Shown one piece after another: positions 5,173 through 49,260 of a stretch of 64,000 nucleotides of DNA (position 1 is its first letter; each line of letters opens with the position of its first letter). The DNA lies in assembly GCF_964019385.1 (NCBI RefSeq), contig NC_088645.1, forward strand, positions 20,187,158 to 20,251,157. The letters are read 5' to 3'. Under the pieces are notes generated by a model, which was not told where the DNA came from, did not search any database, and saw only the letters and a list, made by a program, of their open reading frames with translations. The stretch is from Sycon ciliatum. Taxonomy: Eukaryota; Porifera; Calcarea; Leucosolenida; Sycettidae. A program made the translations under genes and the position numbers.

Positions 5173-6124
5173 AGTAGAAGGTAACAGGAGGGTTTGAGAA
5201 CAAAGTTGACCCGGAAGTGACCTTGTCATGTTTTGACAGGCTGTGGTTTGACCCTGTCAATTTGTGGTTTGACCTTGATTACTTTACCGTGACATCCGTC
5301 AAATAGTGTTACCAGATCACGTGTAACACCCGTGTACTGCGATGTACCTGTGTTACCATAACTTTTGAAGAAAGTGTGACGATAACTTTGAAAAGTGTGA
5401 CGGTAACTTTGAAAAGTGTTTGTTATGCTGTTACAATAATTTTTTTTTTTTTGAAACCGTATCAATGAAATGTCTGTTATTTTTATTACAAACTCTGTTT
5501 TTATCTATATTTGTTAAACTGTGTGCGTGCAACAAACTCTGTTTTCCCTCTGGAGTACCACGGTGAGCACCACCACCACCACCACCGTCACCAAACCTGA
5601 TACTCCACGAGCAAAGCAATGCATCACCGTTGTAAGCCTGCTCGACTCTGCATGAAGCAACAGGTTAGCCGGCAATGACAAAATGAAGAGAGGTACCACT
5701 GCGAAGAAGACGATCACTTGCGCGCTACTCGAAGAGAGGTACATATGTAGTCAGGATGTAGCCCTGTGAAGAAGATGATCACCTGCGATACATCTGAAAT
5801 GAATGAATGATGCGATGCATTAGGTAGCCGTCTAGCGTCGTGTTTGAGTAAAGGTGAAGTGATTTGCGCTCAAGTGCATGGATCTACGCTAACTATTCAC
5901 GGTCTGCGAGTACTTGTCATGCACGAACTTGTCGGACAGGTAGAACAATGCCGAAGACAAGGTGTCAAGTCTGTCCGTGTAGTTACTTTAAGTGCTTGAC
6001 TGTGTTGTGCATGTACATGTAAGTGCTTAGAGGTTTTCGGTGGAAGCATACAGAATTGAAAGAGCGTTGGCACTAGTTTGAGAACAAATGTGCCCGGCAG
6101 TATTGTCTCAAGCTGTTTGTGGAC

Positions 6125-6625
6125 AATTGCCTCACCTCGTGATGGAGAAAATGCAAGCGCATGCATACCGAGACGATGCCGACGAGGAGTGCTCACCTCG
6201 GAGTTTGCACCGTTATGAACAAACACGCACGGCGGCATCGTCTCAAGCGGCTTGTGGGACCATTATTTGCCCACCTCGTGATGGAGAAAATGCAAACGCA
6301 TGCATACCGAGACCACGAGCGCTCACCTCGTGACGAAGAAAATGCAGACGCATGCATACCGAGATTATGAGCGAATCGTCTTTTGCCATAGAGTAGGGTG
6401 GGAACGAACGTGCACGACGGTGTTGTCTCAAGCCGTTAAGCAGCTGTTGCATGTAGCGCATGCATACCGAGATGATGGGCGGACCGTCGTTTGCAATTGA
6501 GTAGGCTATGAACGAACATGCACGGCGGCATTGTCTCAAGCGGTTTGTGGGTAATGCGTCCACCTCGTGACGATGAAAATGCAGACGCATGCATACCGAG
6601 ATGATGAGCGAATCGTATTTTGCCA
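6125..6625. repeat. CATGCATACCGAG minisatellite, left arm
   Basis: Five degenerate units share CCTCGTGAtGgaGAAAATGCA followed by CGCATGCATACCGAGA. They sit at about 6134, 6276, 6325, 6450 (partial) and 6562, with variable linkers that also repeat (TTGTCTCAAGC, GAACGAACATGCACG). Open frames on both strands here are products of the repeat, not separate genes. Confidence 0.8.
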
Positions 6626-6739
6626 TAGAGTAGGGTGCGAACGAACGTGCACGAAAGCACAAATTGCCACGGCGCCCGCAGCACCTACTCAGCAAGACAG
6701 GCAATGCAGACATCTCACTGAATCTACACCCTTAATCCA

Positions 6740-7338
6740 GAGATCTCGGAGGGCAACAGCAAACTACTCCACAGAGATTTATGCCGGAAACGGCCAAGGA
6801 CCGCGCGTTGCGGACCGTGAGTACCAACAGGAGGAGGGTCGAGCAGTATCATGAGTCAGTCAGTGAAGTGGATCTGGGGGAACAGCTCCGGTCACGGGAC
6901 GAGCAGCTAGCAAATGGGAGAAGAGGGGGCTGTACATAAACGGAGGATGAGACGGATGATGAGAAGATGGAAGAGGAATTGGATGAAGAAACGGTCGCTG
7001 AAGAGACAGAGGACGAGGCAGATGAGGGTGGTGATGATGATCGTGTGGATGACGAGCGGAACGAGAAAGAGGACGATGGGATGGACGAGGAGGAGTCGGA
7101 TTGGAAAGAGCGAGATGAGGCGGATGAATGTGTTGATCGTAAGAAGTCGGCGGTGTATCTACACTTGTTATCTCGTCCTGACTGTCTTGGTGTGTATGAT
7201 GACTCTCGTTTTTCTGTACTGTGTCGTGCTCGTTATGTTCAGCAGTTGACAGTCCTTGAGGCAGTTTGTATACGTATTCATAAGCCTGTTTTGTGTGAGC
7301 AGAAAGGGCACGTTGTTGCACTGAGGTTGTATTCGTAG
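6740..7338 (+). pseudogene. Remnant of palindrome-linked acidic protein, left arm
   Basis: The 3' part (6967-7338) is an open frame with a very acidic stretch (EETVAEETEDEADEGGDDD) followed by SRPDCLGVYDDSRFSVLCRA and VLEAVCIRIHKPVLC. Near 6745 another frame reads RRATANYSTEIY. The same two blocks occur in the 41-kb gene pair (RRATANYTMTYFSTEV; SRPDCCKVYSDSSFSVLCRA), so the homology is real. Here the two parts are in different frames with stops between, so this copy looks broken unless an intron joins them. Function is unknown. Confidence 0.5.
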
Positions 7339-7827
7339 GTTGGCACGTCGTTCAGTGCCTTCTTACCTTTGGTTACGCAATCTTGTTACCTTTTCGCGTT
7401 TCCTCTAGTGGTTTTATTGCACTTATATCATGATGTTCTTTCTAACACCCTTCTATTTAACACAGTACTTAACTTCAGTTTCTTTGGTTGTATCCTTTAG
7501 TTCCGTTTTTTCCACTGATGGTAGGAACGAGAAAATCGATTCTGGGTTTCAATAATAATTTTTTTTATTATTGTTATGAAATACACATACATCTCGAACA
7601 AGTAGCGTATTGGCGTGATGTCTGCACCCTTCATCCTATTCATACGAAGTAGCTATCTTATAATACAATCTCCAGTCCAATTTCCACTTCTACCCAAATC
7701 GGAATACTTGATCACGTATTCAGTACTACACGGAAATAAAAGAAAACGCTAGGGAATATGGTGCGACTCGCCAGTCAAGTAGAATTTTTCACAATACGGA
7801 GTCTTCCTACCATAGTACAGCCCGTTA

Positions 7828-8350
7828 GGCTGTGTTTACACGAGGCGTTTCAGCCCGGGCCAGATTTCAACCCACCATGTACACAAAATGAATGGCGCGT
7901 TTACGCGCTTGACCCGGGTCAGGGAGATTGTACGAACGTACTTCTGTGCGTATCCCGCGCCAGGTTTTTGAACATGACTGCATATGCAAATTTCGCGCGA
8001 ACGGATTCACGTGATCACACATGACTCTAGAAGTGGACTTTTGGCGGCATATCAGTATTTGACCCGGGTCAACTGTCTTCATGTAAACGCTCACCTATTT
8101 TGTCTATCGTACAGACTTTCAACCCGGGCTGAACTCAACCAGGTTTGAAATTTCTCATGTAAACAGAGTGCAGTTCGCCAGGAGAGTATGCTGTATATGA
8201 CAGACCCACTTGCGCTATGGCCACGGACTTGTAAATTTGGGATATTTTTCTTAATTGCATCACTTCACATATAAGCCCATGTTGTAATTGGTGGAAATAA
8301 ATAAGCCTGAGGTGAATACGCCCAGGCTTATTTTTCTCATGTAAACAGCC
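7828..8350. mobile_element. MITE with GGCTGTxTTTACAxGAG termini, left arm
   Basis: The ends GGCTGTGTTTACACGAG and CTCATGTAAACAGCC are inverted copies. Several CCCGGG-centred inverted motifs (GACCCGGGTC, GCCCGGGC) lie inside. I see no clear target duplication. The right-arm copy (16001-20363) is split by the RAG1-like transposon, so this one shows the uninterrupted state. Confidence 0.65.
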
Positions 8351-9646
8351 TCTGAGAAGGGAGGTCCATGCAAGTCATGCAAAAAAGGACACTAACAAGT
8401 TTCAAAATGTCATACCCCAATCTGCACTGTGGTTACAGGACATCACACGACTCTCACTAAACAACAGCCATCATTATTAGCTTTCAGTCTTTCGAATGTT
8501 ATGCTAAAGGCAATTTATGCAACCAAAGCAGAGGCGGTGGATGATTCACTGCAGGCAAACGAGCAAACAGAAATGAGACAAGAGAGTTATTCACACAACA
8601 ACCATTTAGCTGTGCCAACATGCTAAATAGCAATGAAATTATTTATTGAGGTAATCTGGAAGAAGCAATGGCTTGTTGCTGGCAATTGATTGGGTCTGAT
8701 TGTAACTCATCCCCAGCAATCTATATCAATGGGTCACCCGGCATTATCGATAAATTTTACAGAACGAAAACGTCAAGTTACGACCACCCCGGAAAAAATG
8801 TATCAACTCAATAGATAGAATGGATTTATGGTATAGGGAGTTTACTTGTGTATAAATCTTACTGTAACCTCAAGCCTATAGGTCAAGTAAGTACACGCAT
8901 GTAGGGCAAAATGGGAGCTTCACTGCTTTTTTAAATCTGCAAACAAAACCATGGCACCCAATTTTTCAAGAGAAACATGTGCAGTACAGTCGTGCACCCA
9001 AGAACGATGTTTCCAAAGGGGTTAGCCTGGGACGTCCTTATTTTTATTCTTGGCTGCAGTCGTATAGCACGTTCTTAGACAAAAATCCGCACCGGAACAT
9101 TGTGTCCTACAAGCTGCCGTTCTAAAGTTTAGGCTTTGGCGTTCTTCAGCATGCGACTCTACAATGAAATTGTCCACATGGTCTACCATTCTGTAGATAG
9201 GCCGGCCAGAGACATGACGATGGCAATGTGAATCGCCATGACGACACTATTTAAAAAGCTAGTAGTAAGTATATGTGAAGTACATTCACACAACATGTGC
9301 CAGTGAAGCGACATCCAGATGTGGTAAGACACCGTAAGAATATTAGCAAGGACTTACTACTTCCAGTTGGAGGGAAGACCACGCCTCGTCTTGTAGTAGC
9401 GAGCAAGGCGATGGATACGGCTCTCGATGAGAATGAGCCTGAACTTGGAATCCTTATCCTGAAACATGTACCCACACTAAATAGAATCGAAGCAGGATAT
9501 TGTTCACCCTGGTACATTTACCAAAAGCCACATCATTGTTTTCCAAAAAGATGCATGGAGTGACCGCACAGACTGGTCACAACAAGACATCACCACATTG
9601 GATATTCAAATTACTTTGAAACAAAGTGAACTAAAGTGGAAATGTA

Positions 9647-9728
9647 TTCACTGTTTAGGCACTAGTTAACCTCTGTTAATTTGGCAAAGACATTTAATTT
9701 TAAATTCACAACCGCATCACGCAGTGAA
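9647..9728 (-). ncRNA. Degenerate C/D snoRNA-like sequence, left arm
   Basis: This is the mirror copy of the right-arm candidate at 14607-14688. It keeps the terminal stem (TTCACTG/CAGTGAA) and the C-box-like GTGATGC, but the D box reads CTAA instead of CTGA. If the right copy is a real snoRNA, this one is probably inactive. Confidence 0.25.
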
Positions 9729-10089
9729 CCCAAGACTTCGCTAAGCCGTAAATACGGTAACGCTGAAAAGTAAAACACACCTTGCGTTGCTTCTCCATAT
9801 GCTTGCGGACAGAGACAGCCTTCTTGATAAGGTGGTACAAGTCCTCTGGAATGGCAGGGCCAAACCTAACACAAGGAAACAAAAATGAATACAAACACGG
9901 ACAGCTTGCACAAGGCGAAGAAACTAGTCTCTGAGTAACAGCAAACAAGTTCAAGGAACAGAACTTTTCAGCTAGATAATAAAACAGTGTTCAACTGTTC
10001 ATACTTTGAAATAGATTTGCATCAGGCAGTCTATATTGTATCAAAGGTTTAAAAAAAAGCCGAATACAAAGAACATTACACACGAGTAA

Positions 10090-10370
10090 GGGAACAAGGA
10101 AAATATTTTCTTTCTTTCAAGTCAGTAGTTGGCCAGTGGTCTGGATTTTCATATTCGGAGGCGTCCATCACATCCGGATTCTATTTAGTGAAAGACGACG
10201 TAGAGCTCTAAACCGTCTACAAAGAAAATATTTCTTTCTTTCAAGCCAGTAGTTGGCCAAGGATCCTAGGCTAGTGGTCTGGATTTTCATATTTGGAGGC
10301 CTCCATTACTTCCGGATTCTATTTAGTGAAGGAAGATGTAGAGCTCTAAACCGTTCACCTTTCAGAAATA
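10090..10370. repeat. Two tandem ~137-bp units in RPS13 intron 4, left arm
   Basis: Two head-to-tail copies share AGTAGTTGGCCA, GGTCTGGATTTTCATAT and CGGATTCTATTTAGTGAA. They mirror 13965-14240 in the right arm. Confidence 0.7.
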
Positions 10371-11855
10371 TAGGCACAGGTTTGTGTCACTAATCCAGCG
10401 GTTGCTGGCCCAAGTTTTCCATGCATAGCCTACAATTCACAAAGTGCGTTCATATTGATGGGCAAAGGTTAATAAACACAAGTGTCAGATACGAAAAGAA
10501 TGCAAACAAACTGTACATGTACATTTGTTACACCTGTATACTAGTCTTCCAGATGTGTCAACACATTGGCGATAATTTAGCTTCAGCCATTCAGAATATT
10601 CACTTGACCAACAGGGCCCGGTGCCGAGGGTGTCAGATAACTGACCGCTGATGAGGCCATTACATATGCTTTGAATGGAATGCATGGACTCAAGTGACAG
10701 TTTGTATTGAGATTCGAAGACCAAATTTGTATCAAGTGGCAAGCCATGCAAACAGTGTTAGGTTTGTGTTGCAAACCGGCACTCGCGCTCCACTGCTTTG
10801 CCACTCCATACAAGGCACCTCAAATCGTGACGTTATCACAATTATTTACATAATACAGCGCTGACAATTGCTCAAGTGAAGTGCTATCATAGTAGTAGCC
10901 AATCCAGCATATATTACAGTTCAAGGGATCCAGGGCAATCACTACAAACAGCAACCACAATTCGTTCTGCGTCATACAATCGGGATGTTGCAGACACCTG
11001 CTGTGTCCAACCTATACCCTGAGTCATCATTGGAGGGCGATGATGAGGCTGTTGTTAGTAACCATCACTGTACCGAAGTATAGGGTGCCACCATTGCATA
11101 GTAATATTTATTGCCCATTTTCAAAATTCGAATTGCTAAAAATGGGTTTCAATATTGCTAATGTCAGCTGCTACTTCTGCCGAGATGTAACGGACGGTGA
11201 CTAATATCTTTAAAGGAAGACAAACTAACTATTAAATTGAACATGTATGTAGGTAATTCATGAAAATGTAAAAAATATCAATTACATACCCTTAACCTTC
11301 AGGATTCGGAGGATCTTGTTGCCAGTAACAAGTTTGACCTGGGCAATACCATTGCTATCACGCAGCATCACACCTACAAATGCAATAGGTACAGATTGCA
11401 CAACAATGATCACGTCAATTAGGCATTCTGCTAAAGAGTTCTGTAAAATTGTGAATTGTGTTGAGTAAAATTATGCGTACAAAATCAAATTTCGACTTGT
11501 AGTAAATTGTTCTTACCGATTTGGGATGGAGTGCGCCCCTTCTTGGCGAGCTTGGCAATCATTTCCTTGACCTCGTCAGAGGACATCTTGACCCACTGCA
11601 GTTAACAGTAGGGTAAAATAGGTATTGTTTACCTTACAAGTCTTCCATACTTGCAGATTTTACTCAGCAGCTAAAAACTTACTGTTGGCACACTGCGCCT
11701 GTATGGCAGTTCCGAGGACGAAATGCCCTTTCTGCAAAGTACCACAATCGAGCACAAACAAGATTGTCGTCAGGCAGGGAAATACGACTATGTAGAGAGG
11801 CTTCCAATGGCCTAAATCAGCTGGGAACATACCCGGGCGCGTGCATACGGACCAT

Positions 11856-12471
11856 GATTGCGTCTTCTTGCCAGGCGATCGAAAGAGAGGCGATCGAGAA
11901 AGAATAAACGAAAGCGCGCATGCGCCTTATTTCTCCATTGGAATATTTTTTGCCTACCTACCGGTACTGTACTTCGTCAGTTCGTGTTTCCCAGTCAGTG
12001 CATGGATGCAGTGCACTCGTACACTCGTACTCGCGCCACTGCACGTGCACTCATGCTAGCACTGAAGTGGAGCAATGACGTCATCAAGATTGCTTTTTGC
12101 AGAAGCGGATCGTCAGTTTTTCGAAAGATTTGGAATGGCTAGGCTGACTACTCGCCCCAAAAAGAAGCAGTTAAGTAAGCAATGCAACGAATTCATTTCA
12201 AATCTTTCGAAAAACGATCAGCTTCTGCAAAAAGCAATCTTGATGACGTCATTGCTCCACTTCAGTGCTAGCATGAGTGCACGTGCAGTGGCGCGAGTAC
12301 GCGTGTACGAGTGCACTGCATCCATGCACTGACTGGGAAACACGAACTGACGAAGTACAGTACCGGTAGGTAGGCAAAAAATATTCCAATGGAGAAATAA
12401 GGCGCATGCGCGCTTTCGTTCTTTCTTTCTCGATCGCCTCTCTTTCGATCGCCTGGCAAGAAGACGCAATC
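11856..12471. promoter_or_regulatory. Bidirectional intergenic region between the RPS13 copies, with palindrome centre
   Basis: 616 bp separate the two divergent ATGs. Next to the right gene is a pyrimidine-rich stretch (CGTTCTTTCTTTCTCG, then CTCTCTTTCG), as expected of a 5'TOP start in a ribosomal protein gene. The left side carries the mirror image with a changed TTTATTC. The unpaired centre lies at about 12139-12190. Promoter function is inferred from position and the pyrimidine tract. Confidence 0.55.
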
Positions 12472-15400
12472 ATGGTCCGTATGCACGCGCCCGGGTATGT
12501 TCCCAGCTGATTTAGGCCATTGGAAGCCTCTCTACACAGTCGTATTTCCCTGCCTGACGACAATCTTGTTTGTGCTCGATTGTGGTACTTTGCAGAAAGG
12601 GCATTTCGTCCTCGGCACTGCCATACAGGCGCAGTGTGCCAACAGTAAGTTTTTAGCTGCTGAGTAAAATCTGCAAGTATGGAAGACTTGTAAGGTAAAC
12701 AATACCTATTTTACCCTACTGTTAACTGCAGTGGGTCAAGATGTCCTCTGACGAGGTCAAGGAAATGATTGCCAAGCTCGCCAAGAAGGGGCGCACTCCA
12801 TCCCAAATCGGTAAGAACAATTTACTACAAGTCGAAATTTGATTTTGTACGCATAATTTTACTCAACACAATTCACAATTTTACAGAACTCTTTAGCAGA
12901 ATGCCTAATTGACGTGATCATTGTTGTGCAATCTGTACCTATTGCATTTGTAGGTGTGATGCTGCGTGATAGCAATGGTATTGCCCAGGTCAAACTTGTT
13001 ACTGGCAACAAGATCCTCCGAATCCTGAAGGCTAAGGGTATGTAATTGATATTTTTTACATTTTCATGAATTACCTACATACATGTTCAATTTAATAGTT
13101 AGTTTGTCTTCCTTTAAAGGTATTAGTCACCGTCCGTTACATCTCGGCAGAAGTAGCAGCTGACATTAGCAATATTGAAACCCATTTTTAGCAATTCGAA
13201 TTTTGAAAATGGGCAATAAATATTACTATGCAATGGTGGCACCCTATACTGCGGTACAGTGATGGTTACTAACAACAGCCTCATCATCGCCCTCCAATGA
13301 TGACTCAGGGTATAGGTTGGACACAGCAGGTGTCTGCAACATCCCGATTGTATGACGCAGAACGAATTGTGGTTGCTGTTTGTAGTGATTGCCCTGGATC
13401 CCTTGAACTGTAATATATGCTGGATTGGCTACTACAATGATAGCACTTCACTTGAGCAATTGTCAGCGCTGTATTATGTAAATGTGATAACGTCACGATT
13501 TGAGGTGCCTTGTATGGAGTGGCAAAGCAGTGGAGCGCGAGTGCCGGTTTGCAACCCAAACCTAACACTGTTTGCATGGCTTGCCACTTGATACAAATTT
13601 GGTCTTCGAATCTCAATACAAACTGTCACTTGAGTCCATGCATTCCATTCAAAGCATATGTAATGGCCTCATCAGCGGTCAGTTATCTGACACCCTCGGC
13701 ACCGGGCCCTGTTGGTCAAGTGAATATTCTGAATGGCTGAAGCTAAATTATCGCCAATGTGTTGACACATCTGGAAGACTAGTATACAGGTGTAACAAAT
13801 GTACATGTACAGTTTGTTTGCATTCTTTTCGTATCTGACACTTGTGTTTATTAACCTTTGCCCATCAATATGAACACACTTTGTGAAGTGTAGGCTATGC
13901 ATGGAAAACTTGGGCCAGCAACCGCTGGATAAGTGACACGCTCCTGTGCCTATATTTCTGAAAGGTGAACGGTTTAGAGTTCTACATCTGCCTTCACTAA
14001 ATAGAATCCGGAAGTAATGGAGGCCTCCAAATATGAAAATCCAGACCACTAGCCTAGGATCCTTGGCCAACTACTTGCTTGAAAGAAAGAAATATTTTCT
14101 TTGTAGACGGTTTAGAGCTCTACGTCTTCCTTCACTAAATAGAATCCGGATGTGATGGAGGCCTCCGAATATGAAAATCCAGACCACTAGCCTAGGATCT
14201 TTGGCCAACTACTGGCTTGAAAGAAAGAAAATATTTTCTTTGTTCCCTTACTCGTGTGTAATGTTCTTTGTATTCGGCTATTTTTAAAACCTTTGATACA
14301 ATATAGACTGCCTGATGCAAATCTATTTCAAAGTATGAACAGTTGAACACTGTTTTATTATCTAGCTGAAAAGTTCTGTTCCTTGAACTTGTTTGCTGTT
14401 ACTCAGAGACTAGTTTCTTCTCCTTGTGCAAGCTGTCCGTGTTTGTATTCATTTTTTCCTTGTGTTAGGTTTGGCCCCTGCCATTCCAGAGGACTTGTAC
14501 CACCTTATCAAGAAGGCTGTCTCTGTCCGCAAGCATATGGAGAAGCAACGCAAGGTGTGTTTTACTTTTCAGCGTTACCGTATTTACGGTTTAGCGAAGT
14601 CTTGGGTTCACTGCGTGATGCGGTTGTGAATTTAAAGTTATATGTCTTTGCCAAATTAACAGATGTTAACTAGTGCCTGAACAGTGAATACATTTCCACT
14701 TTAGTTCACTTTGTTTCAAAGTAATTTGAATATCCAATGTGGTGATGTCTTGTTGTGACCAGTCTGTGCGGTCACTCCATGCATCTCTTTGGAAAACAAT
14801 GATGTGGCTTTTGGTAAATGTACCAGGGTGAACAATATCCTGCTTCGATTCTATTTGGTGTGGTTACATGTTTCAGGATAAGGATTCCAAGTTCAGGCTC
14901 ATTCTCATCGAGAGCCGTATCCATCGCCTTGCTCGCTACTACAAGACGAGGCGTGTTCTTCCCTCCAACTGGAAGTAGTAAGTCCTTGCTAATATTCTTA
15001 CGGTGTCTTACCACATCTGGATGTCGCTTCACTGGCACATGTTGTGTGAATGTACTTCACATATACTTACTACTAGCTTTTTAAATAGTGTCGTCATGGC
15101 GATTCACATTGCCATCGTCATGTCTCTGGCCGGCCTATCTACAGAATGGTAGACCATGTGGACAATTTCATTGTAGAGTCGCATGCTGAAGAACGCCAAA
15201 GCCTAAACTTGAGAACGGCAGCTTGTAGGACACAATGTTCCGGTGCGGATTTTGTATAAGAACGTGCTATACGACTGCAGCCATGAGTAAAAATAAGGAC
15301 GTCCCAGGCTAACCCCTTGGAAACATCGTTCTTGGGTGCACGACTGTACTGCACATGTTTCTCTGGAAAAATTGGGTGCCATGGTTTTGTTTGCAGATTT

Positions 15401-15818
15401 AAAAAAGCAGTGAAGCTCCCATTTTGCCCTACATGCGTGTACTTACTTGACCTATAGGATTGAGGTTACAGTAAGATTTATACACAAGTAAACTCCCTAT
15501 ACCATAAATCCATTCTATCTATTGAGTTGATACATTTTTTCCGGGGTGGTCGTAACTTGACGTTTTCGTTCTGTAAAATCTATCGATAATGCCGGGTGAC
15601 CCATTGATATAGATTGCCGGGGATGAGTTACAATCAGACCCAATCAATTGCCAGCAGCAAGCCATTGCTTCTTCCAGGTTACCTCAATAAATAATTTCAT
15701 TGCTATTTAGCATGTTGGCACAGCTAAATGGTTGATGTGTGAATAACTCTCTTGTCTCATTTCTGTTTGCTGGTTTGCCTGCAGTGAATCATCCACCGCC
15801 TCTGCTTTGGTTGCATAA
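12472..15818 (+). CDS. RPS13: 40S ribosomal protein S13 (uS15), intact copy
   Basis: A component of the small ribosomal subunit. Exons are 12472-12494, 12596-12644, 12732-12810, 12954-13037, 14469-14554, 14877-14977 and 15785-15818. All introns are GT-AG and the spliced frame is 151 aa, the usual animal length. Recognisable blocks run in order: [71 protein letters not shown], and the tail [11 protein letters not shown]. Exon 6 appears to end in a stop (AAG TAG), but GTAAGT overlaps it and the last exon supplies the expected tail. It lies head-to-head with a broken copy, so this is probably the working one of the pair. Confidence 0.97.
13965..14240. repeat. Two tandem ~137-bp units in RPS13 intron 4, right arm
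   Basis: Two direct copies begin CGGTTTAGAG and contain TTCACTAAATAGAATCCGGA, GAAAATCCAGACCACTAGCC and GAAAGAAAG. They differ at scattered positions. The sequence is intronic and shows no coding content. Confidence 0.75.
14607..14688 (+). ncRNA. Candidate C/D box snoRNA in RPS13 intron 5
   Basis: TTCACTG (14607-14613) and CAGTGAA (14682-14688) can form a terminal stem. Just inside lie a C-box-like GTGATGC (14615-14621, one mismatch to RTGATGA) and a perfect D box CTGA (14677-14680). The 82-nt size and intronic place fit a C/D snoRNA. Vertebrate RPS13 introns are known to host U14, but I do not see U14's conserved internal segments here. The guide target is undetermined and chance is not excluded. 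Confidence 0.4.
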
Positions 15819-15854
15819 ATTGCCTTAAGCATAACATTCGAAAGACTGAAAGCT

Positions 15855-15860
15855 AATAAA
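15855..15860 (+). promoter_or_regulatory. Polyadenylation signal of RPS13
   Basis: AATAAA lies 37 bp after the RPS13 stop codon. Confidence 0.6.
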
Positions 15861-16076
15861 GATGGCTGTTGTTTAGTGAGAGTCGTGTGATGTGCGTGCT
15901 ATGTTTGCAAGCTCCTGTAACCACAGTGCAGATTGGGGTATGACATTTTGAAACTTGTTAGTGTCCTTTTGCATGACTTGCATGGACCTCCCTTCTCAGA
16001 GGCTGTTTACATGAGAAAAATAAGCCTGGGCGTATTCACCTCAGGCTTATTTATTTCCACCAATTACAACATGGGC

Positions 16077-19000
16077 CACGGGTGTTTCAGCAGCACCACT
16101 TAAAAATATGGCGTCATTTCGCCCGGTTTGTCAGGATTATGTTAGATTCGGCGCGAGTTATGAATTTATCAGAGTGTACCTAATCGATTTTCTTATTCAC
16201 TTAGGTTTATCAGCGATATTTCGGTTTAGCAAAAGAGACAAACTATTTTTCAAATTCTACGAGTGAACAAGAATTATTTGGACAAGAAGCACAATCATGT
16301 TGACAGGTTCTCTGCTGGCGAACAGACAGTTATACACTAGTTTGCTCACTTACCGAGGACTTCTTCTGTCAGTTTGGCTGTCCAGCTCGTGCCGACCTAC
16401 TGTTCCTGCGACTTTCTCTTCCGTGGCGCAGGACGCAGTGCTATCGCCTCGTTCGTCGTCGTCAGGAGGTGCTGTGCTGCAACAGTTTGGAGGCGCAGCA
16501 GTTCTCGAGGAATAGACTTGTACTTGAAGTTCAGAGAATTCAGTGAAGAGTGGAGACTCTCTGCACCTTGTTCTGCGAGGAGGCCCAATCCTACGCGGAC
16601 TCGTGTCATCAGGGAAACTGTGTGTTCTTCTAATAGGTGCAACTTCGGCGTGATGTGGCCGAATTTCCTGGACACTACTTCCTTCCTGCAGAGGGCCAGG
16701 AATTTCTCGATGTCTTGTTGGAGTTGACCCAAGTCAGCGTCATCGACTGGTTTGCAGTGGCTGAACTTGGCTCGACACGTTGCGTAGCTGTTTATGAGAG
16801 CTACGTATCTATCCGCAATTTTAGTGGCCTCAGGACACAAGTCAGGACACCTTGTTTGGACTGACGAAAGATGTGCGGAGGTGATGGCAGTGACCACGGT
16901 GGGTTTCAAGGCTTCGTGGATGTGGTTACCAACGAAAGCACCACCGTGGTATACCTGACGCTCAATGCCATGAAGCTGTAGGACTGGCTCCAGTGCGCAT
17001 GGGCCACAGAATTGCTTACAGCCGCTCAGTTCGTCTACTTGCTGCTGAAGCTGTGCTGACCGCTGCTGGTGATGGTCACGCTGCTGTATTGCTGTTTGGT
17101 ACACTTCTTGCAAGTGGGCGACAACACCAAGCTCGTCCATGCCGCCTTGCTGCTGTACGTGCAGTGCAACAAATTCAAGCTGTTCCTGAGTCGTAGTTAG
17201 CTGCTGGTTGAAATTCTGGACGAGCTGCTGTTCAGCAGTCAGTTCGCTATGTACATCGCACAGCTTCTTGTACGCAGCACCATCCGTGTCTAGTGCCTGG
17301 CTTCTTGCCACCAGTGCCAAGTCCAGTATTCGGAGCTCGCTCCGCAGAGCTTCGAACAGCCAGGGGTAGATCCCGAGATCCAAGTGTAAGACTGGAATGA
17401 TGACGTTCGGGATTGGCACAGGCAGAACAATTGGTCGAATCACATTGTTATATTTCTTTGCCTGCGATGCTACATATTGGCTGTGGTCGCTTGCTAGAGA
17501 TGCTAGTGTGCGTGGTTCTCTCTCGGCCTCCTCTCTCGCATCACTCTCAAGCTCCATGCTCTTCTTCGTGCATAAACAATGGAGACATGGCCGGAGTCCA
17601 GATGAGCCAGACAATCCAAAGTTGACAGTCTGAAACTCATAGTCCCCGGATAAATAAATCTTCATTGTCTTGCCTTTCCAGGAAGTCTGCTGAAGCTGCT
17701 GAAGCTGGGGTCGGTATTGTCCCAATGCCGTCTCCAAGTTTGCAGGCGTGTCTTTGCCGTTGAAGATGCAGAACGGTATTATGTTTGCGAGTGAATTCGG
17801 ATGCTCGGTGTTGACGATCTGAAAGCTTAGCTTGAACGATCCACCTCCGTGATCTCCGCCAATCTTAATCCAAATCTCTGACTCAGGAATAGCTCCACCA
17901 TGCCATGTTAGTCGGCTACTGTCCTGCAGCTGGTCCAGAAAGAATATGACAATATCCACCAATTTAGGGAAGAGCACAGTTGCTATCATCGTAACTCCGC
18001 CATCCTTGTCTGTCATAGGGAGCTCTTTGGCGGTGTATGAAGGCAGCTTCGAAGCTATCAATGTGCGGACTGTCTTCTCGGATTCCATTTCAACGCCAAA
18101 TTCGTGTAGCCAGCGACGTAGCCTCCGCAACTGACTCCACGGGAGGCTGAGGTCTGCCTTTATAGCCAGTGCACTGCCGGGTGACGGCTTCTTGGCCTTG
18201 ATGCCAGCATCTAACAGAAGCTGCTCCTGTTCAGCAGCAGACAATCTCTGCAAGCCAGCCACCTCTTGTGCTCTGGCTCCAGCCCCACCACCGCACACTG
18301 TCTCAGCATGTCACGTCAATTCTGAGGATCTGCGGCGCAAAGTTGTGCCAGCAGCTCGGTCAGACGGCACATTACTCACAACAGCCCGTTGATAGACCTG
18401 TGGCTTGCCATATGATGCTCTCCTTACCTCCAACCGCCCGTCATGCACCCTTGCTGCCACCAGGTGACCTGTTAGACGGTCAGCTACGTTGCCGCACAAC
18501 TTGGACGGTGATGCGGACAGCACGTCCTCGACAGTCGAGCTTTGTCTAACGGTGCGGATTGGAGCTGTCGTCGTGGCTGGATTGAACTGGCATGCTGCAA
18601 CATGCTTTCGCAGATCTCTCAGCGGAGTAACCACCGGGCAGCCTTGCAGAGATGGCTTGTGGAAGTCACACCGGAGTGTCCAACCATCCATCATCCTGCG
18701 TGGAACCTTTCCTGGCGTCTTTAGCTCAGATGCCTTCAAACAGTTGGCACATGCAGGACATTGCTTGTGCGTTGCTAACCATTCACACATGCAGTCTGCA
18801 CAAAAGTACTCTTCGCAGCATGGTACTTCTATTACGTTGTCCACGATGTTACTGCATATGTTGCACTGCTGTACTGTGTGTGCGTTAATGAACCGCTCTT
18901 TGTTCAGTGGAATCGTTGCAGCATGTTGGCTGCTGCCTGTTGCATATACTGTCTCTCTTGGCACATCCAAACCACATTCCAGTTGTGTTGCTGATGCTTG

Positions 19001-19912
19001 TGAGGCGGGTTGTTGTGTTGGTTGTTGTGTTGGGGTGGCGGTTGCGGTGCTCACGCGTTCGTCCTGAGTGCGTGTTGTTTGCGGAGCGGCCGCGCGCCAG
19101 TGTGTGAGTTGCTTTGCATGCCGTTTTCCCGTGGCCTTTGCTGTATGATCAGTACAGAATGAACAGGCTGAGCGTTGATGTGGTGTCCATTTCACAGGAG
19201 GGCCACAGCCACCGCCGCAGTGCATGGCTTTTTCGCTGGCTCTCTTCATGGCCCTCTGGCACAATACACATATGTATGGGGGGTGTACTTGTGCATCATC
19301 TTCATCAATTTTTATCCCATGCACGGCTTCAAGCTGGGATTTTTAAGATGCAACGGGATAACGGGTCTTCTGTGTGCATGTGGCGAATTTTCTGCCACCA
19401 ACGCGACATACCTCGCCAAGATAAGATACGTGTGCGTCCATATCTTGTCGTAGCTGAAGGAAAACAACAGAATTTTGATGTTCACGTCTTTAGAAACGAA
19501 TTCGCGTCTTGACAAAAAAATGTCGCAGATCGCTTCGTCAAGAACATACCTATGGCGAATCAAATCAACTAAGTCGATGCCGAAGTGATAACTACTTGAT
19601 AATGGCCATGAAAGCTTGTGCTAGTATCTGCGCAATGTCAGGTCGAGCGTGGAACACAACTTCGTTCTCTGCGAGGCAATTTGAATTTCGATCGTGGTGC
19701 GAGGTATGAAAGTGAAGCTAGGAAGGAGTCAAAGAAAAAGAACACGATTTCACCGTACAGAACCCAGTTTGGGTTGGGTAGTGACCTGCTTTAGAGCAGT
19801 ATATCGATAAGTATTTCAGTAATCCACCACGGCCAGAGATTCAAATTTTCAAATTTCGGCAAAAAAGGACGCCATTTTTAGTGGGCGGAAATCGTGCAAA
19901 AAAACATCCGTG
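16077..19912 (-). mobile_element. RAG1-like DNA transposon with 4-bp target duplication
   Basis: The element is 3,836 bp. It starts CACGGGTGTTT and ends in the inverted form (AAACATCCGTG). GGGC flanks both sides (16073-16076 and 19913-19916). The left palindrome arm has a single GGGC at the same place, so the empty site is visible directly. A second inverted block (CACTtAAAAATatGGCGTC) lies 20 bp in from one end and 29 bp in from the other. The only gene is the transposase-like one on the minus strand; no RAG2-like frame is present. Terminal CAC is shared by Transib/RAG and Chapaev-type elements. The 4-bp duplication fits Chapaev better than Transib, which makes 5 bp. Family placement is inference. 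Confidence 0.85.
16397..19441 (-). CDS. RAG1-like transposase: N-terminal zinc motif, RING, zinc finger and DDE-type core
   Basis: Model: exon 1 19441-19412, exon 2 19333-18380, exon 3 18301-16397. Both introns are 78 nt with GT-AG borders (GTATGT and GTGAGT donors) and phase 0, giving 962 aa from an ATG. Without the second intron a TGA (18313-18311) would break the frame. Residues about 26-70 (VHPPYICVLC, then WTPHQRSACSFC) match the RAG1 N-terminal HPxxxCxxC...WxPHxxxCxxC pattern. Residues about 167-210 form a RING. Cys232, Cys242, His254 and Cys258 suggest a further zinc site. The core has IGGDHGGGSFK (D478), a CLHC knuckle (567-570), VLHLDLG (D636) and LLAEQGAESLH (E905 or E909), probable DDE residues. 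A Q-rich helix of about 70 residues lies between D and E. Intactness suggests recent mobility. Confidence 0.8.
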
Positions 19913-20851
19913 GGGCTTATATGTGAAGTGATGCAATTAAGAAACATATCCCAAATTTACAAATCCGTGGCCATAGCGCAAGTGGGTCTGTCATATACAG
20001 CATACTCTCCTGGCGAACTGCACTCTGTTTACATGAGAAATTTCAAACCTGGTTGAGTTCAGCCCGGGTTGAAAGTCTGTACGATAGACAAAATAGGTGA
20101 GCGTTTACATGAAGACAGTTGACCCGGGTCAAATACTGATATGCCGCCAAAAGTCCACTTCTAGAGTCAAGTGTGATCACGTGAATCCGTTCGCGCGAAA
20201 TTTGCATATGCAGTCATGTTCAAAAACCTGGCGCGGGATACGCACAGAAGTACGTTCGTACAATTTTCCTGACCCGGGTCAAGCGCGTAAACGCGCCATT
20301 CATTTTGTGTACATGGCGGGTTGAAATCTGGCCCGGGCTGAAACGCCTCGTGTAAACACAGCCTAACGGGCTGTACTACGGTAGGAAGACTCCGTATTGT
20401 GAAAAATTCTACTTGACTGGCGAGTCGCACCATATTCCCTAGCGTTTTCTTTTATTTCCGTGTAGTACTTAATACGTGATCAAGTATTCCGATTTGGGTA
20501 GAAGTGGAAATTGGACTGGAGATTGTATTATAAGATAGCTACTTCGTATCAATAGGATGAAGGGCGCAGACATCACGCCAATACGCTACTTGTTCGAGAT
20601 GTATGTGTATTTTATAACAATAAAAAAAAAAATATTATTGAAACCCAGAATCGATTTTCTCGTTCCTACCATCAGTGGAAAAAACGGAACTAAAGGATAC
20701 AACCAAAGAACCTGAGGTTAAGTACTGTGTTACATAGAAGGGTGTTAGAAAGAACATCATGATATAAGTGCAATAAAACCACTAGAGGAAACGCGAAAAG
20801 GTAACAAGATTGCGTAACCAAAGGTAAGAAGGCACTGAACGAAGTGCCAAC

Positions 20852-21440
20852 CTACGAATACAACCTCAGTGCAACAATTTGCCCTTTCTGCTCACACAAA
20901 ACAGGCTTATGAATACGTATACAAACTGCCTCAAGGACTGTCAACTGCTGAACATAACGAGCACGACACAGTACAGAAAAACGAGAGTCATCATACACAC
21001 CAAGACAGTCAGGACGAGATAACAAGTGTAGAAACACCGCCGACTTCTTACGATCAACACATTCATCAGCCTTATCTCGCTCTTTCCAATCCGACTCCTC
21101 CTCGTCCATCCCATCGTCCTCTTTCTCGTTCCGCTCGTCATCCACACGATCATCATCACCACCCTCATCTGCCTCGTCCTCTGTCTCTTCAGCGACCGCT
21201 TCTTCATCCAATTCCTCTTCCATCTTCTCATCATCCGTCTCATCCTCCGTTTACGTACAGCCCCCTCTTCTCCCATTTGCTAGCTGCTCGTCCCGTGACC
21301 GGAGCTGTTCCCCCAGATCCACTTCACTGACTGACTCATGATACTGCTCGACCCTCCTCCTGTTGGTATTCACGGTCCGCAACGCGCGGTCCTTGGCCAT
21401 TTCCATCATAAATCTCTGTGGAGTAATTTGCTGTTGCCCT
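20852..21440 (-). pseudogene. Remnant of palindrome-linked acidic protein, right arm
   Basis: Mirror copy of 6740-7338. The open frame 21223-20852 has the acidic stretch and SRPDCLGVYDDSRFSVLCRA. The RRATANYSTEIY block lies upstream in another frame. A few residues differ from the left copy (for example EEAVAEE for EETVAEE). Confidence 0.5.
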
Positions 21441-21549
21441 CCGAGATCTCTGGATTAAGGGTGTAGATTCAGTGAGATGTCTGCATTGCCTGTCTTGCTG
21501 AGTAGGTGCTGCGGGCGCCGTGGCAATTTGTGCTTTCGTGCACGTTCGT

Positions 21550-22080
21550 TCGCACCCTACTCTATGGCAAAATACGATTCGCTCATCATCTCGGTATGCA
21601 TGCGTCTGCATTTTCATCGTCATGAGGTGGACGCATTACCCACAAACCGCTTGAGACAATGCCGCCGTGCATGTTCGTTCATAGCCTACTCAATGGCAAA
21701 CGACGGTCCGCCCATCATCTCGGTATGCATGCGCTACATGCAACAGCTGCTTAACGGCTTGAGACAACGCCGTCGTGCACGGTCGTTCCCACCCTACTCT
21801 ATGGCAAAAGACGATTCGCTTATCATCTCGGTATGCATGCGTCTGCATTTTCTTCGTCACGAGGTGAGCGCTCGTGGTCTCGGTATGCATGCGTTTGCAT
21901 TTTCTCCATCACGAGGTGGGCAAATAATTGTCCCACAAGCCGCTTGAGACGATGCCGCCGTGCGTGTTTGTTCATAACGCTGCAAACTCCGAGGTGAGCA
22001 CTCCTCGTCGGCATCGTCTCGGTATGCATGCGCTTGCATTTTCTCCATCACGAGGTGAGGCAATTGTCCACAAACAGCTT
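21550..22080. repeat. CATGCATACCGAG minisatellite, right arm
   Basis: Mirror of 6125-6625 with the same unit order, read as CTCGGTATGCATGCG followed by TGCATTTTC. Confidence 0.8.
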
Positions 22081-23169
22081 GAGACAATACTGCCGCGCAC
22101 ATTTGTTCTCAAACTAGTGCCAACGCTCTTTCAATTCTGTATGCTTCCACCGAAAACCTCTAAGCACTTACATGTACATGCACAACACAGTCAAGCACTT
22201 AAAGTAACTACACGGACAGACTTGACACCTTGTCTTCGGCATTGTTCTACCTGTCCGACAAGTTCGTGCATGACAAGTACTCGCAGACCGTGAATAGTTT
22301 GCGTAGATCCATGCACTTGAGCGCACATCACTTCACCTTTACTCAAACACGACGCTAGACGGCTACCTAATGCATCGCATCATTCATTCATTTCAGATGT
22401 ATCGCAGGTGATCATCTTCTTCACAGGGCTACATCCTGAGTACATATGTACCTCTCTTCGAGTAGCGCGCAAGTGATCGTCTTCTTCGCAGTGGTACCTC
22501 TCTTCATTTTGTCATTGCCGGCTAACCTGTTGCTTCATGCAGAGTCGAGCAGGCTTACAACGGTGATGCATTGCTTTGCTCGTGGAGTATCAGGTTTGGT
22601 GACGGTGGTGGTGGTGGTGGTGGTGCTCACCGTGATACTCCAGAGGGAAAACAGAGTTTGCTGCACGCACACAGTTTAACAAATATAGATAAAACAGAGT
22701 TTGTAATAAAAATAAAAGACATTTCATTGATACAGTTTCAAAAAAAAATTGTTGTAACAGCATAACAAACACTTTTCAAAGTTACCGGCACACTTTTCAA
22801 AGTTACCGTCACACTTTCTTCAAAAGTTATGGTAACACAGGTACATCGCAGTACACGGGTGTTACATGTGATCTGGTAACACTATTTGACGGATGTCACG
22901 GTAAAGTAATCAAGGTCAAACCACAAATTGACAGGGTCAAACCACAGCCTGTCAAAACATGACAAGGTCACTTCCGGGTCAAGTTTGTTCTCAAACCCTC
23001 CTGTTACCTTCTACTGTTAGGACTGAAAACCCTCTGGCCTCTGCGGCCTTAGCAAGTGTTTCAAAATGGTTATTGACGCTTTTTGAATTATATATGGCCT
23101 TGGTGAGCCTTAAACGCCTTCGACTACAATTTGCAGCTTCTGTTTTCGCGTTTTTTAGCACTTTGTATG

Positions 23170-24921: not shown

Positions 24922-27301
24922 ATGGCGACCTGCAGCAACAACGGTATAAGCCCTCAGGAACCGAAAATCCAGTTCCGAGGGCTCAAGAACAGGGGCCAGA
25001 TGTGCTACATCCATGTGGTAAGCAAAGAAGCCAACCATTTGCAATCTATATTCCAGTTTGCCTCCGCATGTAGGTATTTGTGCGATGCTATATGATGGAT
25101 TCACACTCGCAAGAGGGCTGCTGAGAAATTAACTTCGCACGAAATATTTGCTCGACCCTACGTCTTCGAGTATTCTTCAACAATACTGTCCATGTACTCG
25201 TGTGTCCTCTCTTCTTGTGATTTTGTAGATCTTGTAGTCTTTATAACGTGTGCCTTATCCGCGGCATTGTCATGCTTCAGTCAACAGCGGGCAGCCCGGA
25301 TAAACCCGTCATCAACGCACTGTAAGGCAATTAGTTTTTAATCCCTTTATGAACAAGGGAGAATGAAGTTGCCAACGAGAGCGCTTCCATGTAGGTCTTC
25401 CTACAGCATACTTTTATATGATCGACTTCAAGCACCTACAATATATATCGATATCGCAATTTTCTCAAAAACGGATACACTACTCCTTAGGAATCCAGCT
25501 ATACCTTAAAAAACGGATATATTCTTCCTTCGTCCTCAAAGAGCTAATGCTGTTACACTTACCGTTTGATCATTGTAGTTTAGATTCATGACTATTGACA
25601 TTGTAGCTATAAAAGCGCTGATTGTTTGTTGGTTATTCCTCGATATGTCTCCAGCAGGAGAAATAAGAAGTGCATTGTTGACGTTTGGCAGGAAGAGGAT
25701 TTTGTAGTATTGCTCGATTCAATATTATGCAATTTCTGTCCTCTTTTCTACAGGGCGGAGTTTTTCACTTGGTCGCATGGAGAACCAAAAGTAGCCGACA
25801 AGGAAGATCTTGGCACTTGGGAGGGCGTGAGAGTTAAACGAGCAAAGCCCAAGAAGGTCAAGGGCCCTCAAGTGCCGATTGGTACTCCGTTCGAACCATG
25901 CCAGTTCTACGAGATAATGCCCATCGTGAACCCATATTTATCAGTATACGTAAGTTAAGGTGCTCTTTCATCTTTATCCAGATTGATTTACGGTCTCCAT
26001 GATGAACTCATAGGGATGCTTTCTGTCTGTTCGGCATAAAAGCATTTTAGTTAGGTCAAAATGTCATTTACATTGATAGGCAATAAAAAGACAGAAGGTG
26101 TCCCGTTTGGTTAAAACCTAATAGTAATACTTGCATTTAACGGAATTCGCGGGTATGATATCACACAATAATAATGACATTTCCGACACTTCCGATGTCT
26201 TTCTGTTCTGTAGGGGGAGCAGGAAGATGCCGAGGAATTCCTCTCTTCCTTGCTCAATAAATTGCACGACGAGGCAAAATGGGGTGAATTTGTGGCAACG
26301 GCACCATCGCCGATTCAACACCTGGTTTTCGGCGAGCTCAAGAACACTATCACCGACAAGAAGGGCGTCGTGGTCTCCGTCACCGAAGAAAGATTTGTCA
26401 CGCTTCCGCTAGGGGTCGACGACATCCGCATCCAGACTATTCAGGATGCATTCGACGTCTTAGCAAGTGCCGTGGAACTGGAAGAATATGCTAAAGGAGC
26501 GGTTAGGAAGACCACGTTCACGCGGCTTCCCACCCTCCTCATGGTTCACTTGAAACGATTCACGTTCGATTCAACACGCGGTTTAGAGAAAATACACAAG
26601 CGCGTGAAGTTCGGATTCAAGTTGACCCTGCAACGATGTGAGTATCTTCATTGTATAATTATAAGTCTCGTTTTCGTTTTATCAGTAGATTGAAATTGTA
26701 CCATGATCACCAAAAGTAACGAGATTTTTAAGTTAGGACTGTGCTCTTATTAGTTTCGTGAATTCCAGTTTCACATTTCGGAAGTTTATAACCTTGTCTC
26801 CTATAAATTTTGTGTTATCCAGCCATGATTGAGCCATCTCCACTTGTGTCGCCGGAGTACGAGCTTATTTCGGGTAAGTGGGACAATTGTAGTAAAAATC
26901 AATATTGCCTTTGGGGTAAAAACAATAATATTAAAAGAGCACAATTGTAGTAAAAATCAATATGAGGGATGAAAACCATTATTCAGAAAGTGGTGGCCAT
27001 CACGCAACTGCATTGTAAATGCAACAATTATGTCAGTCCATTCAACACGGTATACAACAATAATTTCATGTATTCTCCTTATTAAAGGGCACAATGTATA
27101 CTTAAATTTTCCTGTTCTGCAGTCATCTATCACCACGGCGCCACAGGAGACAGTGGTCATTATTCAAACGATTCGAAGGATCCCACCACTGGAAAATGGA
27201 TTCGCTTCGACGATGCAGTGGTGAAGGCCCTAGACGCCAGTCAGGTCACCAACTATCCGGCGGGGAAGACCCCCTACGTCTTGTTCTATAGTCGAGTCTA
27301 G
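24922..27301 (+). pseudogene. USP10-like protease, second copy, disrupted in exon 2
   Basis: Exons match copy 1: 24922-25017, 25229-25321, 25754-25949, 26214-26637, 26823-26873 and 27123-27301. All splice sites are kept. Exon 2 has a TAG (25235-25237, CAG in copy 1) and one extra base (93 nt instead of 92), so the frame is lost right after the catalytic Cys. The His and Asp boxes in exon 6 stay intact. Other exons differ from copy 1 by few substitutions, so the damage is recent. Starting downstream of exon 2 could give only a protein without the Cys box. Confidence 0.85.
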
Positions 27302-28280: not shown

Positions 28281-28925
28281 GAGTATTGTGTAGACTCCCT
28301 ATATCTAGTTTTATACGTAATGTGTAGACTTCCTTGATGAATGTAAAGTCTCTTTTTATTCACGAGTTATGTCACCTAATAAAAAATCATTTTGTCCTTA
28401 TCTGTTATTCGAGAACAGTTTGGTTACGGTTGCTCTAGGTGTTGAATTTTTGTGGGGCAGTGCAATGTCACAAGGCAGGTGTATTCCTCAGTCTTTGTGC
28501 CTTTCAGTCATACAGATGAACTGCACGAATTCGTTGTATTGGGCGCTAACTGTGTGTTCACTGTGTTTTTACATTTTAGACATTCCTGTGTATAGTCAGA
28601 TTGTCTGCCGATAAAGCACACAGTCACTGACTCATGGACATACAGCAAGCAGCAGGTCCTGAAGTGGTCATGGATGCTCAGCCAGTAATTCGTGAAAAGG
28701 AAAGAAAGAAACGATTAAAGTTACTTCGTACGTAAAATAATGCGTAAACACTAGTTCATACACCATCATTTGAGTGGATTTGGCAAGTATATTTCTTGTC
28801 TCCTGTTTGTATCTGTCAATGTTGTGGCACTACTTGTAGTATTTGCAATAGAGTTCAAACATAAGGAAGGGAAGATTTAGTTAGGCCGCTGTATCGTAGC
28901 TCATCATCAACTAAAGGCCTTGATC

Positions 28926-29735
28926 ATGGACGCTACTAGCCAATTTTCAACAAACCGGGAAGGCAATAAACTCGTTGCAACTACTGTGTCGGCAACTGGG
29001 ACTGTGGGTCGTGCGGCAGCAGTCTACATGGGGTCCCTGCCTGCATGTGCTTTGCTGCAACACGAACCAACCGTATGTCGTCACCCCTGCTCACGTTGCC
29101 CAGATGGGGAAACCAGGCCTCGTAATCTACTGCACTGTTTGCACAAGATCTGCAGAGACTGTTTGTCAATGGCAATCGACGACCACAGCAGGATCAAGTG
29201 TCACGTTTGTTCGAGGTTTACACCCTTTAACTCTCCTGAATGGTGACACGACCAGTTGCTGATCGATGATGCTAGGTTCGATCGTGTTCATCGAGAACGT
29301 ACAGTGACGTTGCCTGCTCCAGTGGAAGGAGAAGCTAAGAAGCCTGGGCAGTCCCAGGGAGAGGCTGAATCCCTGTCGCCAGGTATTCAATAACAGTATC
29401 AGAGTCGTTACCAATAACCAATTACTGTAAAACATGCAAAGAAGTGCTGTGCGAACTATACATCGGATCAAACAACCACGAGACGCACAGGGAAGAGAAG
29501 ACGGGCACGAGCAGTGCAGTTTCTACCTTCCGTAGGTGACTTCAGAAGTTATACACGAAGCTAGATTCAGACCAGAAAGTCATAAAAGGCAGTCTTCAAC
29601 GCTGTCGTGACCTTCTGCGCTTTGCCACCGGTAGGGTAGGTGAATTGTGTGCGCGCTTGGCATACCTGAGAGAGCTGGGAGTGAAGTGGCCTGTAGCAGG
29701 CGTACTGGCGAGTTTGCAGAACGTTTTTTAGGATT
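28926..29735 (+). pseudogene. TRIM-like RING/B-box gene, broken copy
   Basis: It is closely related to the gene at 56463. It opens MDATSQFSTNREGN and has a RING-like Cys/His array (CSRCPDGETRP...LLHCLHKICRDCL...CHVC). At 29244-29246 a TGA replaces a Gly codon found in the 56-kb copy. Beyond it, conserved text continues (HDQLLIDDARFDRVHRE, LPAPVEGEAKKPGQ), then a B-box-like YCKTCKEVLCELYIGS with HETH, and a helical stretch (LQRCRDLLRFATGRVGELCARLA). Several stops and shifts interrupt it. The B-box continuation here is longer than in the 56-kb copy. Confidence 0.65.
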
Positions 29736-47824: not shown

Positions 47825-49260
47825 ATAATAATAATAGGTCTGACGGGGGTCGCCATGGCAGATAATAATGTTAAACAATGGCAATCACAGACAGGAAGCT
47901 GTCTCAGGGCAAGTTTCTATTTTAACATGAGGAGGATATGGTACGACGGTAGCTTTGAAGCTGCTGATAGACGACAGTACTCTGTACTCTGACTGCATCC
48001 GGTAGGATGTTCCAAAGGGCACTACCTCGGGAGGCAGGGCGAGATCGTCTGGCGCGGGATCGTGTAGCTGGCAGACGGAGCCCCCTGGCGAGATCCAGAC
48101 GCGTCCTAAAATCCGCGCAGCGTACGAAGAGCTCCTGGAAGGATGGACTCCCACTGGCGTGTATGCACCGCCAGACAAAGACCAGGACCTTCTGCCGATG
48201 TACTTCTCCAATCCTGAACACCTCCATGCGTTCCAGGAGAACCCTGGACGGCCATAAAAATGCTCTTGCCCCACGGTTTTGTGCTACTTGGAGCCGATCG
48301 GTCTGGGCCTGAGTGAGTCCTGGGCTAAAGGCAACGGACCTATACAGTAGATCCGGCATGATAGCTGCCTTGAAGAACAGCACACGGCTAGCAAGTGTGA
48401 CTTCCGTGTCTGCCACAGAGTTCCAATTTTCTTATTGGCTTTCGTGATGCTCGCATCGACCTGGGGCTGCCATGACTTGGGTACATCCAAGATGATGCCA
48501 AGGTAGCGGGCACTGGTGACGCTTGGCACGTGCGTGCAATCGCACTTTACCACAAAGTTGGGACTCTGGCCATGGGAACCTTCAAAGACAAGGAGCTGAC
48601 TCTTGGTGGCGTTGAGGATGAAACCAACTAGAGGCTAGCCAGCAAACTAGGCTACAGACGGCTGTTGTGAGCTCAGACGAAACGAGGTCAGCACTGCGGC
48701 GGCTGGAAGTCAAGTCTATATTGTCTGCAAACTGGATTGACATAGTCGGGGAGGTAACAGTCGGTTCGTCTCGAGTGTATATGCTGAAGAGCAGCGGCCC
48801 CAGGACCGAACCCTGCGGAACACCGCAGGTGCATGTAACAACCCTGCCGAGTCCGGTACCAGTGCGCACTTGCTGTTGGCGACTTGACAGGTAATGTTTG
48901 AACCAAGTCAGTGCTCCTCCAGTAAAGCCAATGTCAAAAAGGTCCCGGATAAGAATGCTATGGTTGACTTTATAGAAGCCTTTCTACATATCTAGTAGGC
49001 AGGTTGCCACAACTAGAACGTCGTCTCGCCCAATGTTGACTCTGTCAGATAGTAGGGCTAGAGCATCTTCCGTAGAGTGCTCATGACGGAACGCAAATTG
49101 GGTCACTGGCAAAATGCTCATCCGTGCGACATGTTTCACCAACGATTTCTGCACGACCATCTCAAGAATCTTGGACAGTATTGGTAGCAGTGATACCGGT
49201 CGGAATTTTTTTGGGAACAGAGGGATCGCCAGACTTGTGGAGCCGAGCAACGTGGGCTAA
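47825..49260 (-). mobile_element. 5'-truncated LINE remnant, minus strand
   Basis: Reverse-transcriptase pieces in several frames: FRPVSLLPILSKILE (about 49200), [18 protein letters not shown] then FADNIDL (about 48720-48830), ARYLGIILDVPKSW (about 48500), and a C-terminal part (MPDLLYRSVAFSPG; QVAQNRGARAFLWPS) to about 47930. FADN in place of FADD and many shifts show it is dead. The 3' end abuts an (ATT)n tract at 47820-47835, as with the other LINEs here. Confidence 0.75.

Follow-up and report, generated by a model that had tools for sequence, protein, structure and literature searches.

We analysed 64,000 nucleotides of the genome of the calcareous sponge Sycon ciliatum (contig NC_088645.1, positions 20,187,158 to 20,251,157; the window, in what follows), in which a preliminary description had noticed a transposon gene with the domain order of RAG1. 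We identify this locus, with high confidence, as a defunct copy of a Chapaev transposon of the autonomous, RING-bearing kind. The whole element occupies 16077..19912 (3,836 bp), and its transposase frame, on the minus strand, is interrupted by two stop codons. The domain architecture itself was already reported in 2015; the new finding is that the ends of the element are built in two parts with two fixed spacers.

Assignment to Chapaev and delimitation of the element

The assignment was made through profile, termini, target-site duplication and motifs, published Chapaev members being compared by description. The transposase frame matched DUF1280 (PF06918), which PMC3985635 equates with Chapaev, at 67.8 bits (cut-off 25). 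Chapaev elements are described in PMC4079192 as having duplications of 3-4 bp, CAC/GTG termini and C2C, LH and H4H motifs. The window copy has 5'-CAC...GTG-3' termini and a 4-bp duplication, GGGC, for which an empty site exists. Residue conservation was counted across 82 aligned sequences, some of them partial, each count being given out of the sequences with a residue at the given place. Each Cys of the C(2)C motif, CLHC (17576..17587, minus strand), was conserved in 71/72, the LH-motif His in 65/67 and each His of the H(4)H motif, HLLEEH (16622..16639, minus strand), in 52/53. Furthermore, the frame begins with a RAG1-type zinc domain ('Chapa') followed by a RING, an arrangement reported for two Chapaev subgroups by Kapitonov and Koonin (2015; PMC4411706), who argue that the Chapa-RING order predates Transib and RAG. 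The Sycon element shares with those elements the DUF1280-type DDE core, the CAC/GTG termini, the 4-bp duplication and the zinc domain preceding the RING. It differs in its sponge host and in its bipartite ends with two fixed spacers, which are unmentioned in the available part of PMC4411706.

The boundaries were read from the termini and flanks of an insert that is unique to one arm of a palindrome. Positions 12194-16076 and 19913-23015 are inverted matches of 5173-12137 (97.4% and 98.1% identity), and the insert is present in the right arm alone, 19913 pairing with 8278 and 16076 with 8275. GGGC flanks the element on each side (16073..16076 and 19913..19916), whilst the left arm retains an uninterrupted counterpart of the insertion site (8241..8310) with a single GGGC. 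Because this empty site has been kept, boundaries and duplication were obtained without assuming any family.

The inverted repeat as a whole covers 5173-23015, with arms 97-98% identical, a centre near 12165 and the element confined to one of them. Either this palindrome is real, or the assembly has linked two haplotypes head to head, which would make the insertion an allelic difference.

The ends of the element are bipartite and unequal

A search of the 538-Mb genome that scored 69 out of 1,005 candidates from a first look returned at least 79 matched stretches of this family. Ends were located by the pattern CACGGNTGTT, with which they start, read inward, with few exceptions; their layout of box plus ATGGCG can also be written CACGGCTGTT...ATGGCG. 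Within the window the end pattern matched twice (0.01 expected), both times at an end of this element. The 3' end, relative to the gene, carries the CAC box CACGGGTGTT (16077..16086, plus strand) and, beyond a 10-bp spacer, a second box (16097..16115, plus strand) in which, counted from the tip, CA stands at position 21 and ATGGCG at position 32. At the 5' end the CAC box CACGGATGTT (19903..19912, minus strand) is followed after a 19-bp spacer by a second box (19868..19883, minus strand) with CA at 30 and ATGGCG at 38.

The same layout recurs in representatives with 43-58% identity to the window protein in the core. CA at 21 and ATGGCG at 32 were found in all 13 3' representatives, in which positions 11-20 are variable. 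CA lies at 30 or 31 in 11 of 11 5' representatives, with ATGGCG at 38-40 in six of them, a one-base mismatch in one more and no such box in four. Between the 10-bp CAC box and the CA box, the spacer measures 10 bp in 3' ends and 19-20 bp in 5' ends. With sister copies included, exact ATGGCG was present in 26/31 ends, whereas 2,000 shuffles gave 0.32 on average and never more than 3; for CA, the highest count in 20,000 shuffles was 7. These were single-base shuffles in which shared ancestry remains, and the motif was noticed first and tested afterwards. Eight further pieces were taken after the rule had been formed. Six held a terminus (L073 and L078 did not) and all six fit, three being near-duplicates of earlier ends (L071, L072 and L074) and three new (L075, L076 and L077).

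In their sequence layout, these bipartite, asymmetric ends are recalling the 12/23 signals of V(D)J recombination. A RAGL transposon with two conserved elements 4/13 bp apart is described in PMC9435367, and ProtoRAG spacers of 27/31 are given in PMC8355894. The likeness of the end layout to RAGL and ProtoRAG is direct, and may point to a common origin and function. A literature search covering titles and the starts of abstracts found no paper on this sponge family or on such ends, which is not proof of absence.

The main alternative, for the ATGGCG part of the ends, is that the box is a host transcription-factor or promoter site not read by the transposase, its likeness to recombination signal sequences (RSS) being coincidental. 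ATGGCG resembles what we take to be the YY1 motif, AANATGGCGGC, and several 3' ends match this motif closely. Moreover, the four 5' representatives devoid of ATGGCG include L016, from a family with several near-identical inserted copies. Against a YY1-type site, the box is fixed at its distance from the tip in every 3' representative, its inward orientation is identical at both ends, and the 5' ends that lack it still have CA at 30/31. We give the host-site explanation an appreciable chance, though one short of even. That the ends are true analogues of RSS, the transposase reading the CAC box plus the second box and synapsis preferring a 10-bp with a 19-20-bp end, is a tentative proposal that we regard as possible but rather doubtful.

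The transposase has the domain order of RAG1

As the preliminary description had proposed, all parts of a RAG1-type order are present in sequence in one transposon gene: 16397-19441 of the minus strand encodes a zinc motif like the RAG1 N-terminus, a RING, a Cys/His finger, a CLHC knuckle and DDE-type motifs. The N-terminal zinc domain (about codons 4-101; 19139..19432, minus strand) was recognised by its profile match to RAG1, profile positions 4-101 matching the PDB RAG1 chain 21wb with an E of 2e-10. PF12560 scored 22.6 bits in the window frame, slightly below its cut-off of 23.3. The RING and next zinc finger resemble the RAG1 dimerization domain (codons 176-293; 18563..18916, minus strand). 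Among 177,635 distinct PDB sequences, the top match of the family profile was full-length RAG1 (E 8.2e-23, 83.8 bits), in a collinear alignment that spans RAG1 residues 102-376 and takes in the zinc motifs, RING and finger. The N-terminal third is thus a strong sequence match to RAG1, and on these alignments the RAG1-like domain order is more than chance.

A helical region (18194..18379, minus strand) occupies the place of the RAG1 nonamer-binding domain, following a GxP motif whose G is kept in 66/72 and P in 53/72 relatives with a residue there. This assignment is weak: some structural alignments reach RAG1 391-460, with an overall root-mean-square deviation of 7-12 Å. The catalytic core (model residues 384-974; 16421..18193, minus strand), which had been expected to fold as a DDE transposase, shares the RAG1/Transib core fold in structural comparison of the predicted model.

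Catalytic residues were assigned by conservation. The putative first Asp, in IGGDHGGG (17852..17854, minus strand), is present in 81/81 sequences, and the second, in GKDTPANL (17750..17752, minus strand), in 74/75, following a modelled strand and preceding a helix. The candidate Glu is the second of AEQGAESLH (E928; 16559..16561, minus strand; 52/53), which a second match, weak and non-significant, pairs with RAG1 ASEGNES. Two of the three acidic candidates first put forward are hence retained, in IGGDHGGG and AEQGAESLH; the Asp of VLHLDLG was rejected as the second acidic residue because Asp is found there in only 38/67 sequences, as opposed to 74/75 at GKDTPANL. The catalytic residues of RAG1 are D600, D708 and E962. 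The order in the Sycon family matches that of RAG1 D600, D708, Cys pair, His pair and E962, for which the residue letters were checked.

Several results weigh against the relationship to RAG1. PF12940, the RAG1 core family, found no match in the window frames at E values up to 10 or in nine relatives at E values up to 1, and its cut-off was passed only by a diverged relative, L067 (27.6 bits). RAG1 was not among the ten hits of a core-only profile (A2) against PDB sequences. Against one mouse RAG1 core, hhalign gave the profiles weak local alignments (E 0.07-0.09), and in one global run no more than one column was aligned. By these sequence comparisons, the similarity of the core to RAG1 is near or below detection. 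In a Foldseek search with the N-terminal/RING model, TRAF6 and LNX ranked above the RAG1 structure 1rmd (rank 11); VIA-align of the N-terminal model covers the RING module only. In short, the element shares with vertebrate RAG1 the collinear order of N-terminal zinc domain, RING plus finger and core, together with the core fold, but it is a transposon without RAG2, its core sequence is nearly unrecognisable and its core model contains long, coiled-coil-like helices (model residues 651-773).

It had been suggested that the element belongs either to a pool that contributed the N-terminal half of RAG1 or among RAG1/Transib cousins. The latter holds, the cousin being a Chapaev element; a separate N-terminal pool becomes less likely, since each half is related to RAG1 and the two are also joined in a sea urchin, where protein P0079 of Lytechinus variegatus matches both PF12560 (26.6 bits) and DUF1280 (79.5 bits). 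Aplysia N-RAG-TP likewise carries RAG1 N-terminal-like sequence in a mobile element, but is entirely N-terminal-like according to PMC8355894, whereas a DDE core follows in the Sycon element. The halves might nevertheless have been joined secondarily, in a lineage within an N-RAG-TP-like pool that gave RAG1 its N-terminal half only. In sequence, the N-terminal half indeed resembles RAG1 much more closely than the core does, and some relatives, such as P0062, have no RING match. However, RAG1-related halves are united in sponge and sea-urchin relatives alike, and one old fusion is both simpler and the published view (PMC4411706). We therefore consider secondary joining unlikely. It was reasonable to expect that the gene would bear on how RAG originated, an expectation tempered by the fact that Chapaev elements with zinc domain and RING were already reported in 2015 (PMC4411706).

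Distinction from RAGL and Transib elements

Filing the element as RAGL or Transib in the strict sense was also weighed. Its RAG1-type N-terminus, RING module, core fold and CAC termini would be in keeping with such an identity, as would bipartite, unequal ends like those of RAGL/ProtoRAG (PMC7204232, PMC9435367). Nevertheless, RAGL elements have a RAG2-like gene and 5-bp duplications, while the Sycon element has one gene, with sequence outside the transposase frame of 320 and 471 bp, leaving no room for a RAG2-like gene. Transib (HzTransib 6pqx) also makes a 5-bp duplication and lacks the RAG1 N-terminal region (PMC7204232) that the Sycon element possesses. Invertebrate RAG1L proteins have a C-terminal CCGHC tail (PMC7204232); no Cys occurs within the last 50 residues of the Sycon frame, hence no such tail. 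DUF1280 is matched in place of PF12940.

Both ends could be located for 28 elements, of which 24 have a 4-bp duplication. The tally by batch (4 bp, 5 bp, none) was 9, 2 and 1 of 12 elements, then 13, 1 and 0 of 14; in a last batch, read by eye from the flanks, both of two were 4 bp. The batch of 14 was located among 19 piece pairs, five of which did not contain both termini. The three 5-bp cases (L018, L019 and L037/38) and the one without duplication (L011) speak against a Chapaev assignment. Taken together, however, a strict-sense RAGL or Transib identity is very improbable, and we retain the element in Chapaev.

The window copy is broken and not spliced

The frame at 16397..19441 (minus strand) comprises 1,014 codons and a terminal TAG, as established by translation and comparison with sister copies. 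It contains an in-frame TAA at codon 33 (19343..19345) and an in-frame TGA at codon 377 (18311..18313), both of which are sense codons in 3/3 sister copies compared. Nine other copies in the same genome matched the whole of a 637-amino-acid query at 90% or more: six have open frames of 1,032-1,033 amino acids, two have 968-amino-acid frames and one has two internal TGA codons. The 962-amino-acid spliced product previously predicted equals the 1,014-codon frame minus two 78-nt stretches. These supposed introns are artefacts of stop avoidance, the sister copies being open across both places, and the two stops overturn the description of the gene as apparently intact. Since sister copies have sense codons at both stops, sequence comparison identifies the locus as a broken copy of a single frame that is continuous in open sisters, as expected of one gene as opposed to two unrelated ones. 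A spliced gene with two 78-nt introns would account for the double interruption of the window frame, but with sisters open at both sites and diverged relatives (L021-L024) split elsewhere, within the DUF1280 region, it is scarcely credible. The splits in L021-L024 are themselves intron-like.

In the mechanism we propose, a transposase of roughly 1,017 amino acids would pair partly via its RING/zinc-finger module, which may double as a ubiquitin ligase. The enzyme would recognise the CAC box and second box of each end, its DDE centre would cut at CAC, and the excised element would be inserted with a 4-bp stagger. The window copy could supply no full-length transposase and would be movable only by the enzyme of a sister.

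Family members and relatives

Identity between the window copy and three sisters is 98.8-99.2%. Two open sisters, L009 and L026, differ at 9 positions over 3,848 bp (99.8% identity) and have different duplications. From this near-identity of open sister copies, we conclude that the family moved recently. An alignment-based homolog search among 7,986 candidates found at least 20 proteins, all close. Named relatives (65 proteins) come from Sycon, lancelets, Lytechinus and Littorina; gene models called 'Em' among the relatives are presumably, by their naming, those of the freshwater sponge Ephydatia.

L067 and L068 are diverged and apparently shortened, have a RAG1-type N-terminus and pass or approach the Pfam cut-off for the RAG1 core; by core sequence they may be the closest to RAG1 in this genome. 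L069 and L070, which match the RAG1 core weakly (about 15.5 bits), represent a further transposase-like family, probably a separate lineage within the same large group. Public models of this transposase (P0011, P0020 and P0033) are labelled 'E3 ubiquitin-protein ligase NRDP1', presumably on account of the RING; such labels can mislead gene-family counts.

Other features of the window

Within the palindrome, short exons at 14470-14990, which recur in the left arm, resemble ribosomal protein S13 by eye. A ubiquitin-hydrolase (UCH, PF00443) exon is present in two direct, nearly identical copies, at 2159-2638 and 26214-26693, the latter scoring 57.4 bits and the former being matched to it by DNA comparison. 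Reverse-transcriptase frames occur at 44491-45918, 48582-48983 and 52916-55936, the last an open frame of 1,006 amino acids with endonuclease and reverse transcriptase. The frames at 28881-29246 and 56424-57071 are related to each other, and that at 56424-57071 weakly matches a B-box zinc finger (21.9 bits, against a cut-off of 24.1).

Implications for the origin of RAG

The questions addressed by this family are the origins of the N-terminal half of RAG1 and of unequal, paired recombination signals, on which the Sycon element bears as a relative outside the RAGL/Transib line. Open sponge copies that combine the RAG1 order and two-spacer ends with a single gene provide material for tests of cleavage, of a pairing rule and of what the RING does. 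Of all these features, the asymmetric two-part ends most deserve to be tested. Should they prove to be RSS analogues, they would represent a 12/23-like rule with spacers about one helical turn apart, and the protein layout of V(D)J recombination together with its paired unequal signals would predate the divergence between Chapaev on one side and Transib and RAG on the other.
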